Below are positions 57,817 to 62,773 of a DNA stretch of 64,000 nucleotides, one piece after another. The stretch comes from Citrifermentans bemidjiense Bem (GTDB lineage Bacteria; Desulfobacterota; Desulfuromonadia; Geobacterales; Geobacteraceae), in contig NC_011146.1 of the NCBI RefSeq assembly GCF_000020725.1, forward strand, positions 4,344,001 to 4,408,000. Reading direction: 5' to 3'. Under the pieces are notes generated by a model. The model was not told the origin of the DNA and ran no database searches. It was given only the letters and a program-made list of their open reading frames with translations. The stretch's first letter is position 1; every line of letters begins with the position of its first letter. A program made the translations under genes and the position numbers.

Positions 57817-58103
57817 TGGTAATGTCCGAAAAAATTTGGGTTGGGATAGGGCTTTCCGGCCAGTTCTTCTTCACCATGCGCTTCGTGGTGCAGTGGATCG
57901 CCACCGAAAGGAACCGCAGGAGCGTCATCCCCGAATCATTCTGGTACTTCAGCATCTTCGGCTCCCTGATCCTGCTGGTGTACTCGCTCTACCGCAAGGA
58001 CCCGGTCTTCATCCTGGGACAGGCCTTCGGCACCACGGTCTACCTCCGAAACCTCTTCTTCATCCACAAGGAAAAGAAAGATGTCTCATGCGCCACAAGC
58101 TAA
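57816..58103 (+). CDS. LAB_N domain membrane protein
   Basis: A 95-residue protein with the lipid-A-disaccharide-synthase N-terminal-like domain (LSGQFFFTMRFVVQWIATER, then VIPESFWYFSIFGS). It has three predicted helices. It overlaps both neighbours (TGATG start; 23 bases into the ArnT-like gene). Often found between GT2 and GT39 genes, possibly in flipping or holding the lipid-linked sugar. Confidence 0.86.
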   Translation: MVMSEKIWVGIGLSGQFFFTMRFVVQWIATERNRRSVIPESFWYFSIFGSLILLVYSLYRKDPVFILGQAFGTTVYLRNLFFIHKEKKDVSCATS

Positions 58104-59703
58104 GGGGCTCTGGCTCCCCTTCCTGATCCTGGCCGGGACCTGCCTCCTTTTCTCGCTGGCACTCCCCTTCTTCCCCGTGGACGAGACCCGCTACCTCTCC
58201 GTGGCCTGGGAGATGAGGGTGCACGACTCCTTCATCGTCCCGATCCAGAACGCGCTCCCCTATTCGCACAAGCCCCCCCTGCTCTTCTGGCTGATCAATC
58301 TGGACTGGCTGCTCTTCGGGGTCAATGAGGGGACGCTCCGCTTCATCCCGCTCATCTTCAGCCTTTTCAACGTCTGCCTGGTGTACCGGATCGCCTTGCA
58401 GCTCTGGGAGGACCGCAAGCTCGCGCTGAACGCCGCCGTGATCCTAGGCTCCACCTTCTCTTACCTCCTCTGGTCCTCGGTGATCATGTTCGACGTGATC
58501 CTCTCCTTCTGGGTCCTCGTAGCCGTCTCCGCCTTCATCCGCGCCGGCAGGGAAAGGAGATTCGCCGATTTCGCCCTGGCGGGCGCGGCCATAGGAGGGG
58601 GGTTCCTTACCAAGGGGCCGGTGGTGCTGGTCTACATCCTCCCGGTGGCGCTCTTCGCCTTCTGGTGGCAGCCCAAAGGCGAGGTCACTCCCAAGTGGTA
58701 CGGCTTTTTGCTCCTCTCCCTGCTGATAGGTATCGCGGTTGTCCTCGCCTGGCTCATCCCGGCGGCGCTCACGGGGGGGGAGGTTTACCGCAAGGCGATC
58801 CTGTGGGGGCAGACGGTGAACCGCATGGCCAACTCCTTCGCCCATAAAAGGCCGCTTTGGTGGTATTTGCAGTGGGTCCCGGCACTGCTGGCTCCCTGGA
58901 TCTTCTTCGCCCCCCTCTGGCGCGGCTGCCGCCGCCTGACCCTGGATGCCGGAACCAGAGTGGTGTTCACCTGGATCGTTTCCGGTTTCGTCGTTTTCTC
59001 CTTTTTGAGCGGGAAGCAGGTGCACTACCTCATCCCCCTGATCCCCGCCTGCAGCCTGTTGGCGGCGAAGGCGATCGCCTGCTCTCAGGATTCCGCACGG
59101 AGGTTCCAGCTCCCGATTGCCATCTTCTACCTGATCCTCGGCGCAGCCATCGTCGCGCTCACCTTCCTGAAGCAGAGGGGCGCGCTGCAATATTTCGATC
59201 CCGGCGAGCTGAGAATCGCCGCTGCCGGCCTCATGCTCCTCGGCGCGGCGCTCTCCTTCCCAAGACCACGCGACGTTTCGGCGGCACTCAGGCTGGTGGC
59301 GGTCTCAGCGCTCCCCTTCTGCGCCCTGGTGGCGGTCGGCTGCCAAACCTTCTCCGGGCGCTACGACCTCCACGCGGTATCCGCGGCGGTACTAAAGAAG
59401 CAGCAGGAAGGCTACCAAGTGCTGCACCAGGGGAAATACCACGGCCAGTACCATTTCATGGGGCGGCTGCAGCTGCCGCTGGTGGAACTGGAGGGAAGCG
59501 ACCAGATCCGGCGCTACGCACAGACCCACGACAAGGTGGCGCTGGTCAGCTACACCCCTCCGGGCCAGGCGGTGCAGCCTGAAGAGGCCTTCTTCCGGCA
59601 GCCGTTCAGGAGCAAGCAGGTGGTCCTTTGGAACAGCCGGGGGATCATGCAGAACCTCGACGGCGCCAAAGCCGCCGCACCCCTGCACCAAGGGGAACAA
59701 TAA
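58081..59703 (+). CDS. ArnT-like GT39 glycosyltransferase
   Basis: A 540-residue polytopic transferase with an N-terminal catalytic loop FPVDETRYLSVAWEMR (Asp/Glu pair) and about 11 helices. ArnT adds aminoarabinose from undecaprenyl phosphate to lipid A. The sugar here is unknown, since no arn sugar-making genes are present. A strong terminator follows. Confidence 0.87.
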   Translation: MSHAPQAKGLWLPFLILAGTCLLFSLALPFFPVDETRYLSVAWEMRVHDSFIVPIQNALPYSHKPPLLFWLINLDWLLFGVNEGTLRFIPLIFSLFNVCLVYRIALQLWEDRKLALNAAVILGSTFSYLLWSSVIMFDVILSFWVLVAVSAFIRAGRERRFADFALAGAAIGGGFLTKGPVVLVYILPVALFAFWWQPKGEVTPKWYGFLLLSLLIGIAVVLAWLIPAALTGGEVYRKAILWGQTVNRMANSFAHKRPLWWYLQWVPALLAPWIFFAPLWRGCRRLTLDAGTRVVFTWIVSGFVVFSFLSGKQVHYLIPLIPACSLLAAKAIACSQDSARRFQLPIAIFYLILGAAIVALTFLKQRGALQYFDPGELRIAAAGLMLLGAALSFPRPRDVSAALRLVAVSALPFCALVAVGCQTFSGRYDLHAVSAAVLKKQQEGYQVLHQGKYHGQYHFMGRLQLPLVELEGSDQIRRYAQTHDKVALVSYTPPGQAVQPEEAFFRQPFRSKQVVLWNSRGIMQNLDGAKAAAPLHQGEQ

Positions 59704-59708
59704 AAAAA

Positions 59709-59738
59709 GGCCCGCCAACTTCAGTTGACGGGCCTTTT
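59709..59738 (+). terminator. Terminator of the glycosyltransferase operon
   Basis: GGCCCGCCAACT, TC loop, AGTTGACGGGCC with TTTT, six bases after the stop codon, preceded by an A-run. Confidence 0.9.
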
Positions 59739-59759
59739 CTGCTACATGCCGAGGATCAA

Positions 59760-60071
59760 TCACCGGTACCCTGCTTCCTTCCAGGCGTTCAGACCACCCT
59801 TGAGGGCCGATACGTTGCGGTATCCCTTCTCCTCGAACTCAGCTGCCCGACCGGCAGACGTATGTTCCTGCGGTCACTGGCAATAGAAGATCAGCTCCTT
59901 CTCCTTCGGTATCTCGGAGAGCCGTGAGTTCAGCTCCCCCATGGTCATCGCCTTCTCCAACCTGATCCCCCCGCACATCTCCTCGCTGTCGTAGGCACAG
60001 ACGAAGAGGGCCTCCCCTCCCTGCACCTTCCTGCGCGCTTCCTCAATCGAGATCCGTTTTGCCTCTGCCAT
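59760..60071 (-). CDS. Candidate selenocysteine-containing rhodanese-like protein
   Basis: A 103-residue reading frame on the minus strand, interrupted by one in-frame UGA at 59876-59874 (codon 66). Reading UGA as selenocysteine restores a full rhodanese domain. Before it: MAEAKRISIEEARRKVQGGE ... LIFYCQ. After it: PQEHTSAGRAAEFEEKGYRN ... GGLNAWKEAGYR. In homologous rhodaneses the active loop often reads YCxCPNEATSA, so the UGA stands where a Cys is usual. A stem with a GGUC-containing loop begins 16 bases after the UGA, as in bacterial SECIS elements. AAGGAGG precedes the ATG. A pseudogene with a point mutation is the alternative, but the intact downstream domain and hairpin argue against it. 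Confidence 0.82.
59843..59876 (-). promoter_or_regulatory. Bacterial SECIS-like element
   Basis: From the UGA (59876-59874) there are 16 bases, then the stem CTGCC, loop GGTCG, stem GGCAG (59857-59843). The distance from UGA to the GGU loop is 21 bases, comparable to the E. coli formate dehydrogenase element, which is about 18. Confidence 0.7.
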
Positions 60072-60146
60072 GTCATCCTCCTTTGGGCACGCTGTAACCA
60101 GACCGTGAAAGAGTAGCAGAGAAAGCCACTGCGTATAGGGGAGCAA

Positions 60147-62069
60147 TCACCGCGAAATGTTCGCCCGCCTCTGGCGCGAGGACGACTTGGTGACCTCGAA
60201 GCGGAACTCCCCTTTGAGTTCCGCTTTCCCCCCCAGCATGCGCGCAAGGGTCGCCTTGACCGTCGCCTGGTCGTCATCGAAATCCCCATGATGGCGGGCC
60301 GTTGAATAGTCGCAGGGGGAGTCCTTCAGGTCGTTCGGGGCTCTCACCCAGTCCGCTTTCTTTGCGGAGAAGAGATCGCTAAGCCTTGAGTCGCTCTCGA
60401 TGCAGCGCTCCAGCCCCAATAGCGGCACGCCGTCCTTGAAGAGCGGGATGTGCGGCTCAGCCTCGAAGGCGTTCGACACCAGGTACAAGAGCGACTTGTT
60501 GTAGATGCGCGCGCAGTTGTCGCACTGCTCCGCCTTGTCGTTCAAGGTGAAAAGGGTGAAGCACCCGATGTGGCCGCAGTCGATGGAAGGGAGGTAGCTC
60601 TGCTTGAAGAGCGCCGTGGTGCATGCCGGCGCCCAGAGGGTGCAGCTCTTGATCGGGCGCCCCATCTTCGCCAGCCCCTCGACCACCGGGGCGTGGAAGA
60701 CCGATCCGGCGCTGTGCCCGACCAGGTGGATCTCCACATCGGCGGGGAGCCGCTTGATCTGCTCGAGAGCCAAGCGTGCGCCTCCCTCCTCGGCGGTCCC
60801 GGCAGCGAGCGCGTTTTGCTTCATCTCGCTCCAAAGCGGCTTTCCTGCCAGCCGCGCCACCGGTTCCAGTGCGTCGTCCAGGCGGTCCAGCATGAAGTCC
60901 TTGCTGTCGTCCAGGAACCCTTCCGACCTCCGCTTGTGCATGGCATCGGTGAGGATGTTGCAGATGGTGGTGAACATGTCGCTGTGCCAGATGAAGGCCA
61001 GTGGATATATCTCCGCCTTCAGGAGCTGGGTGCAGTATTCGGCCACCCGCTGCACCGCCGACGCCTCGTCCACAAGGCCCCCGTGCGCGTAAAGGAGCAG
61101 CCTTTTCTTGTTCCACCCCGCCGTGAGCGCAGGGAAGTCCCTGGCGAAGATGTCCTCCACGTCGTGCCTGGTGGTGCCGTAGCTTCCCCCCGGCCGCAGC
61201 ACCCCGTTGTTGCCGATGCTGACGATATGGCGACGCAGTTCCGTGCTGGAGTAGGCGCCGGAATGGCTGATCGCCGCGGAGCTCCCGATGGCCGTCGACT
61301 CCGGCGCATGGAGGTTCATCGGCACCCCCAGCCGCGCCACCCAGGCGTCGTCGCCGTTGGCAAGCCAGTCGTCATAGCCGATGCGGGCGAAGCCCCCCTT
61401 GCCCCAGTCCTTTCCCCAGGAGTTCTGCATCCAGAAGCCGTCCTCGTCGTAGCCCACGATGGCGAACGCGTGCCCACCTATGACGGTGTCCGATCTCTTG
61501 ATCACCCCGTCGGAGCCGACGTTTTCCCAGCCGCTGTGAACGCTCGAGGTGGCGAAGAGGATCCCCACCTCAGCCAGGGCGCTGTGCATCGCCACCAGGT
61601 CCTTGTGGTTCACCCGGAAATAGGCACCCAGCGAGCGCTTGGGAGCGTCCTTCAGCGCCTCCTCGCTCAGGCGTCCCCCCTTCTCGCACAGGCCGGTGGC
61701 ACAGACCCCGTGCTTGTGCCACCCCTTCATGGCGCCCCTCGCGCTCGACCCCTCGTAGTTCTCCCCAGGCCACTCGTCGTAGCGCTTGGCCAGCTGGTAC
61801 AACATCCAGGGGCTGACGCTGACCGTGTCCGGGATAACCCTGCGTTTGCGCAAAAGGTAGTTGACGTTCGTGGCCAGGCCGAAGCCAGTGCAGGCCCCTT
61901 CGGTTCCCTGGTCCAGGATGGGAACCTCGTATTCGAGGTAGCTTTCCAGCTCCATCCGCATCGGGACCTCCAACAGCGTCGGCACGAACATCCTGTCCCT
62001 GAAATCCAGCGTGTCCGGCCTGACGTACAACTTCCGTCCATCCTTCGTCACCAGTTTCGGCTTGCTCAT
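60147..62069 (-). CDS. Papain-like protease fused to a serine hydrolase domain
   Basis: A 640-residue protein from the ATG at 62069 with AAGGAGGG upstream. The N-terminal half is a C1A papain fold: oxyanion Gln54, Cys60 in DQGTEGACTGFG, His200 in GGHAFAIVGYD and Asn216 in NSWGKDWGKGGF. The C-terminal half looks like an alpha/beta hydrolase: HGG at 330-332 after LLLYA, and nucleophile Ser453 in VGHSAGS. No signal peptide is visible. I do not recognise a named family with this arrangement. It may be a cytoplasmic or non-classically exported hydrolase. Gene neighbours give no pathway. Confidence 0.82.
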   Translation of the reverse strand: MSKPKLVTKDGRKLYVRPDTLDFRDRMFVPTLLEVPMRMELESYLEYEVPILDQGTEGACTGFGLATNVNYLLRKRRVIPDTVSVSPWMLYQLAKRYDEWPGENYEGSSARGAMKGWHKHGVCATGLCEKGGRLSEEALKDAPKRSLGAYFRVNHKDLVAMHSALAEVGILFATSSVHSGWENVGSDGVIKRSDTVIGGHAFAIVGYDEDGFWMQNSWGKDWGKGGFARIGYDDWLANGDDAWVARLGVPMNLHAPESTAIGSSAAISHSGAYSSTELRRHIVSIGNNGVLRPGGSYGTTRHDVEDIFARDFPALTAGWNKKRLLLYAHGGLVDEASAVQRVAEYCTQLLKAEIYPLAFIWHSDMFTTICNILTDAMHKRRSEGFLDDSKDFMLDRLDDALEPVARLAGKPLWSEMKQNALAAGTAEEGGARLALEQIKRLPADVEIHLVGHSAGSVFHAPVVEGLAKMGRPIKSCTLWAPACTTALFKQSYLPSIDCGHIGCFTLFTLNDKAEQCDNCARIYNKSLLYLVSNAFEAEPHIPLFKDGVPLLGLERCIESDSRLSDLFSAKKADWVRAPNDLKDSPCDYSTARHHGDFDDDQATVKATLARMLGGKAELKGEFRFEVTKSSSRQRRANISR

Positions 62070-62170
62070 TGCGCCCTCCTTCGTTGTTGGTACCCCCCAG
62101 ACCCGGCAACCGCGATGGCCCTCCTTGGGCGCCTGGCTCAAACCCGACGCTCCGGCTACCGCCCAACCGG

Positions 62171-62773
62171 TCACTGCCCCGCGATCGAATTCTTCACCAC
62201 CTTGATCTCCCCCGAACTCATGTCGTACACCCAGCCGTGGATTTTCAGCTTCTTGTCCGTCATTGCCTTCCGCACGAAAGGATATTCCTGCAGATGCTCC
62301 AGTTGCAGCCTTACGTTCTCCTCGACGATCAGGTTCATCCGCTGTTCGTGCGGCATGTCGATGTGCAGCGCGTTGATCTTCTCGTCCACGCGTTCCTTTG
62401 CCTTATAGGCGTTGTTCAGCCAGATGGGGATGTACTTGTCGTCGCCGTCCTCCTCCATGAGAGCGTTGATCCCGCCGCAGCCGTAATGGCCGCAGATGAC
62501 GATGTCCGGAATCTTCAGATGGTTGATGGAAAATTCCAGCACTGCGCTCAGGTTCCAGTCGTTGTTGGCCACGATGTTGCCGACGTTGCGATGCACGAAC
62601 ACCTCTCCCGCCCTGGTCTGGGTGATGGTGTTCACCGGCACCCGGGAATCGGAGCAACCGATCCACAACACGGTCGGTTTCTGGTCCTTGGCGAGTACGG
62701 TGAAGAACTCCTTTTCCTTCTCGAAGGTCTCCTCGACAAAACGCTTGTTCCCCTCCAACAAGGTAGCGATCAT
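62171..62773 (-). CDS. Beta-class carbonic anhydrase
   Basis: A 200-residue enzyme interconverting CO2 and bicarbonate. Zinc ligands and catalytic residues are Cys40, Asp42 and Arg44 in CSDSR, and His96/Cys99 in GHYGCGG. Start at 62773 (MIATLLEGNKRFVE) after a G-rich ribosome site. It precedes the protease fusion by about 100 bases on the same strand. Confidence 0.95.
   Translation of the reverse strand: MIATLLEGNKRFVEETFEKEKEFFTVLAKDQKPTVLWIGCSDSRVPVNTITQTRAGEVFVHRNVGNIVANNDWNLSAVLEFSINHLKIPDIVICGHYGCGGINALMEEDGDDKYIPIWLNNAYKAKERVDEKINALHIDMPHEQRMNLIVEENVRLQLEHLQEYPFVRKAMTDKKLKIHGWVYDMSSGEIKVVKNSIAGQ

Follow-up and report, generated by a model that had tools for sequence, protein, structure and literature searches.

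A candidate stand-alone rhodanese-fold selenoprotein encoded across an in-frame UGA in Citrifermentans bemidjiense Bem

The locus and its reading frame

We analysed a stretch of 64,000 nucleotides of the C. bemidjiense Bem genome (hereafter, the window), the minus strand of which carries a short gene with a Shine-Dalgarno sequence ahead of it and a terminator-like hairpin behind it (Table 1). The frame runs for 65 codons from the ATG to an in-frame TGA, and then for 37 codons to a second TGA; its coordinates were re-derived and agree with those of the initial annotation. As had also been pointed out there, ordinary annotation would end the protein at residue 65, where the first TGA is reached. 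With this TGA taken as residue 66, the product has 103 residues and reads, from the UGA on, UPQEHTSAGRAAEFEEKGYRNVSALKGGLNAWKEAGYR. No ATG, GTG or TTG is present in frame between the two TGAs. Of the neighbouring frames, one of 540 aa on the plus strand (58081–59703) is convergent with the gene, and one of 675 aa on the minus strand (60147–62174) lies upstream of it.

Table 1. Features of the candidate selenoprotein gene (positions within the window)
Feature	Position	Strand	Details
Gene, 103-residue rhodanese-fold selenoprotein (probable)	59760–60071	−	ATG 60071–60069; stop TGA 59762–59760
In-frame UGA, read as selenocysteine (probable)	59874–59876	−	Residue 66 of C64-Q-U66
SECIS apical stem-loop (candidate)	59843–59857	−	CUGCC-GGUCG-GGCAG, 16 nt 3′ of the UGA
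Shine-Dalgarno sequence	60077–60082	−	AGGAGG
Terminator-like hairpin	59703–59740	−	17 pairs, 3′ of the stop

Conservation of the UGA, the stem-loop and the selenocysteine machinery

Close orthologues were detected in 28 of the 48 family genomes, that of C. bemidjiense included (E below 1e-26), and each of the 28 is interrupted by a single TGA, always at the same column, and continues downstream. The same UGA was found again in other assemblies of relatives, and a 99% identical protein is encoded in Citrifermentans bremense (L042). The gene belongs to a group with the motif VCAY[DE] and a cysteine at residue 25, here called the VCAY clade. Among 104 fetched loci with the VCAY motif of this clade upstream of the site, a redundant set, 103 have UGA at the site, one has UAA and none has a Cys codon. 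A genome scan used two patterns, one of which covers the C[AS]Y[DE] motif of the clade and is silent on the UGA codon; of the 80 named loci among the matches listed (22 more confirmed stretches lie outside them), 48 carry that motif, each of them with TGA as the codon in question. In a class-level profile search of 277 genomes, 51 of the 52 matches of at least 100 bits have TGA, one of them (in G256) holding TAA as well, and the remaining match, in G181, has TAA without TGA; at least two of the 52 (in G035 and G001) belong to the LYCAU clade described below and not to the VCAY clade. In a phylum sample of 395 genomes, all 47 matches at E 1e-22, with the two clades pooled, have at least one TGA. 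Record titles place VCAY-clade members in deltaproteobacterial groups, Nitrospirota, two Planctomycetota and one Synergistaceae bin, the non-deltaproteobacterial records being mostly metagenome bins for which misbinning is possible.

The genome G181 holds two VCAY-clade copies (L154 and L155, on contigs C57 and C91), one of which, L154, has UAA at the selenocysteine site and is perhaps decaying, while the other has TGA. A VCAY-clade locus (L084:3001–3306) has TGA at both loop positions (U-x-U), and the same was observed in another rhodanese (L163, G036:C24:102119–102418).

The sequence after the UGA is under purifying selection, as is the part before it. For 13 near relatives, the pooled pN/pS was 0.188 before the UGA and 0.214 after it, compared with 2.23 and 1.57 for the two other frames of the stretch after the UGA. 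The pS was lower in the SECIS codons (0.181) than beyond them (0.443). Over 30 aligned sequences, Cys64 and residue 66 are invariant, as are G92, G93, W97, A100 and G101 in the last third of the protein, and Cys25 is retained in at least 90% of the rows. Homologues ending at the UGA would have spoken against the selenoprotein; those found run past it with conserved sequence.

The stem CTGCC/GGCAG with the loop GGTCG, proposed in the initial annotation, was borne out by a check of the sequence and starts 16 nt after the TGA. Its GGUC loop presumably resembles the loop of E. coli fdhF. When all 1693 TGA triplets of the window, counted over both strands, are compared, only this one is followed by five Watson-Crick pairs and a GGTC-containing loop at SECIS distance, a strict pattern chosen after the site was seen; if the loop rule is relaxed, 30 of the 1693 pass. 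In an Rfam scan of the gene, no family reached its gathering score. We then aligned the 54 nt from the UGA, gap-free, for 61 relatives (57 distinct), excluding L106 (frameshift after the UGA) and L154 (UAA). From these 61 rows, RNAalifold predicted the proposed stem alone (columns 20–24 with 30–34). Of the stem cells, 98.2% are paired. The complete five-pair stem is present in 52 of the 57 distinct relatives, and a GU loop likewise in 52 of 57, whereas of 32 homologues with Cys in the selenocysteine column and similar residues around it, 8 have the complete set of pairs and none has the GU loop.

Covariation of the stem was 0.226, compared with 0.112 (sd 0.013) for shuffled alignments and a maximum of 0.123 for slid versions of the stem, in a shuffle test that is inflated by the relatedness of the sequences. 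For two of the five covariation measures, the observed value was matched by shuffles in 49 of 500 cases (double-change pairs) and 58 of 500 cases (further pair types). The compensatory changes run from wobble position to wobble position: pair 21–33, formed by third codon positions, is UA in 33, CG in 20, UG in 2, AU in 1 and another combination in 1, and pair 24–30 is replaced by U-A in two cases and left unpaired in three. Pairs 22–32 and 23–31 are set by Ala codons and are little informative. In the 32 Cys homologues, pair 21–33 is paired in 19 compared with 13.2 expected (p 0.007), and pair 24–30 in 11 compared with 11.2 expected; since the excess at 21–33 is found in these homologues too, not all of its covariation need be due to SECIS, and a part may come from codon usage. 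A tree-based test of the 21–33 covariation gave only three supported independent pairs (p 0.25), and ten on an unsupported tree.

In single-sequence folding, the proposed stem appeared in the best fold of the 54 nt that begin with the UGA and in four out of five shorter slices, and a 42-nt slice from the UGA gave a competing helix. The best fold of a 71-nt stretch including bases before the UGA was also a competing helix, one that uses UGACC (z −0.79). The 14 best-fold pairs of the window sequence hold in 599 of 854 cells across the family, compared with 300 of 305 for the five SECIS pairs, and in 24-nt local folds the stem appears in 55 of the 61 relatives and is absent in 6.

The selenocysteine machinery, sought as a check on the initial annotation, is present in full in the C. 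bemidjiense genome: SelA (600.3 bits), SelB (393 bits), SelD (359.5 bits, encoded by a gene with a TGA of its own) and, for selC, a tRNA-Sec with the TCA anticodon (UCA). In the search for tRNA-Sec, all 14 control genomes were positive at the E-value limit, and the bit score was therefore used; matches above 70 bits were obtained in 27 of the 28 family carriers (not G031). SelB was matched at E 1e-60 in 26 of the 28 (not G031 or G032). The two carriers with missing matches are 84% complete. A further rhodanese, L162 (G001:C62:4074–4247), has TGA at the usual catalytic Cys (YUAAGVRS); SelB is present in its assembly, in which no tRNA-Sec match above gathering score was found.

These data bear on two other ways of decoding the UGA. 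Read-through of UGA is known in bacteria, and the codon could be read as some other residue, such as Trp, by ordinary suppression without SelB. However, the column holds Cys in 32 of 32 more distant homologues, which were picked with a Cys-requiring motif, as the initial annotation had stated for rhodaneses of the YCxCPNEATSA type; together with the SECIS-like stem with its GU loop and the selenocysteine machinery of the genome, this leaves suppression highly improbable. Standard annotation rules would make the UGA a true stop, leaving a 65-residue product and a decaying pseudogene, and the UAA of L154, whose genome also holds an intact copy with UGA, indicates that such decay occurs, but the equally low pN/pS on the two sides of the codon, the invariant residues of the last third, the use of UGA and not UAA or UAG at all but one of the 104 loci and the covarying stem make this reading scarcely credible.

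Fold, family placement and published relatives

The protein scored 35.3 bits against PF00581, above the gathering score of 22.2, which places it in the rhodanese superfamily. An AlphaFold2 model built with 30 sequences (pLDDT 91.1) predicts a confident rhodanese fold, and the best Foldseek matches listed are rhodanese domains, including GlpE (PDB 1gmx; TM 0.78), a thiosulfate sulfurtransferase that is likewise a single-domain rhodanese. Taken together, the conserved UGA, the coding constraint past it, the covarying stem, the selenocysteine machinery and the rhodanese fold argue that the gene very probably encodes a stand-alone rhodanese-fold selenoprotein of 103 residues with selenocysteine at residue 66.

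No NCBIfam model matched the VCAY clade at its cut-off among the members scanned. Against NF041203, with a cut-off of 115, the protein scored 65.6 bits and six other VCAY-clade members 46.0–69.8 bits, compared with 132.8–157.4 bits for four LYCAU members; against NF001195 (GlpE), with a cut-off of 102, it scored 24.5 bits. In a tree of 101 rows, the 61 VCAY-clade rows fell on one side of a branch with SH-aLRT 99 and the four LYCAU rows on one side of another with SH-aLRT 98; this was a quick tree from a short alignment, with long outgroup branches and much of the inner order unsettled. On these scores and branches, we judge the VCAY clade to be related to, but separate from, NF041203. Plasmid matches comprised 18 records, all below 60% identity, annotated as rhodanese-like, DedA/GlpE or VTT-domain proteins or unannotated.

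In the accessible part of PMC13188914, five forms of rhodanese selenoprotein are listed, of which ‘rhodanese-like domain-containing protein form 3, CxU’ corresponds to NF041203 (rhodanese_LYCAU); the CxU form also appears in the accessible part of PMC9312934. The statement in the initial annotation that selenocysteine rhodaneses have been listed in surveys thus holds, but the nearest listed family, NF041203, excludes the present protein at its curated cut-off. A ‘sulfurtransferase homologous to a rhodanese-like protein’ is listed in the accessible parts of PMC2398784 and PMC5029168 and might be the VCAY clade. The table of PMC1794560 on the selenoproteins of three Geobacter species names no rhodanese in its accessible part. 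No mention of the gene was found in the article passages searched, and an earlier description is possible. CxU rhodanese selenoproteins are already published, and from the sequence comparison the VCAY clade appears to be a separate, further one.

The VCAY and LYCAU clades share the rhodanese fold, the C-x-U motif and selenocysteine encoded by UGA at the same place, and the LYCAU members found belong to the same phylum. They differ in that the VCAY clade has Cys25, and VCAY[DE] instead of the D-V/A-R type motif, and in that the two LYCAU genes viewed closely upstream (L153 and L165) encode a hydrophobic leader, which the gene studied here lacks. At L160 (G197:C290:8257–8556), a relative resembling the LYCAU type has Cys in the selenocysteine column (LFCGC). 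The Cys rhodaneses with YCxCPNEATSA (L088, L090–L105 and L107–L121; mostly from Acidobacteria) have the same loop with Cys in the selenocysteine column, but are without the SECIS loop, in many cases carry a membrane-like segment ahead of the domain and fall outside the VCAY clade in the tree. Homologues with Cys in this column were found only outside the clade; no Cys form was seen within the supported VCAY clade, the records of which come from several phyla.

The C. bemidjiense genome encodes another selenocysteine rhodanese, the ExtH-type L152 (G000:C1:2734624–2734908, outside the window), which has an in-frame TGA with a similar stem after it. Unlike the short protein described here, it is a long multi-domain protein (465-codon open frame) with a different loop and no CxU. 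We take it to be, probably, the ‘form 1, UxxS’ rhodanese selenoprotein.

Proposed function of the selenocysteine rhodanese

Lying 16 nt 3′ of the UGA, the stem-loop would direct SelB and Sec-tRNA(UCA) to this codon, so that selenocysteine would be inserted at residue 66 in place of chain termination. In the alignment, the first Cys and the conserved Gly-Tyr/Phe lie two residues further apart than in GlpE, suggesting that the active-site loop is probably enlarged; the GlpE loop also has no CxC or CxU. The catalytic Cys of ordinary rhodaneses falls opposite Sec66 in GlpE and in the second 6mxv domain, and opposite Cys64 in the first 6mxv domain and in 6pfz. From the enlarged loop and the C-x-U motif, we infer a Cys–Sec pair handling persulfides, and give slightly less than an even chance to Cys64 and Sec66 lying together in this loop and acting as a pair. 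One of the two would take a sulfane sulfur atom and the other would attack to release or transfer the sulfur, and the resulting Cys–Sec bond would be reduced by thioredoxin-like partners. The nearly invariant Cys25 may assist them. The protein would then serve anaerobes in reducing persulfides or in carrying sulfur, and would not be a thiosulfate:cyanide rhodanese.

Alternatively, the selenoprotein could serve as a carrier or donor of selenium, in the form of a protein perselenide, for selenophosphate synthesis, instead of as a sulfur or persulfide enzyme; a perselenide rhodanese was reportedly proposed as a selenium carrier by Ogasawara in 2001. The gene neighbours show no theme among 20 reading frames at 15 of the 18 selected loci compared with Pfam (5 of the 20 without a match; matches at the selected loci including UbiA, FKBP, cytidylyltransferase, TauE and DJ-1, among others), which weighs against the proposed persulfide chemistry; nor does any fixed neighbour speak against a carrier. 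However, three genomes of the same genus (G018, G024 and G026) have tRNA-Sec and SelB with no VCAY-clade match at E 1e-12, so that the VCAY-clade protein is not required for selenocysteine synthesis, and selA lies approximately 68 kb away from the gene and does not adjoin it. We therefore regard the carrier role as improbable, though far less so than the two other decodings of the UGA.

Returning to the sulfur-handling role, a more far-reaching version appears unlikely, but less so than the carrier: the VCAY clade may be a subfamily of rhodaneses that cannot do without selenocysteine, with three chalcogen residues in the active site (Cys25, Cys64 and Sec66, or Sec-x-Sec in one member) that would perform redox reactions of persulfides or perselenides of a kind not known for rhodaneses with Cys. 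In practice, an annotation pipeline that has no model of the VCAY clade would cut the gene short or break it in two wherever it occurs. Synonymous substitutions within the stem offer a natural data set on the requirements of bacterial SECIS elements, and a selenocysteine clade for which no Cys counterpart was found is a good place to ask what selenium can do in sulfur transfer that is beyond sulfur itself.
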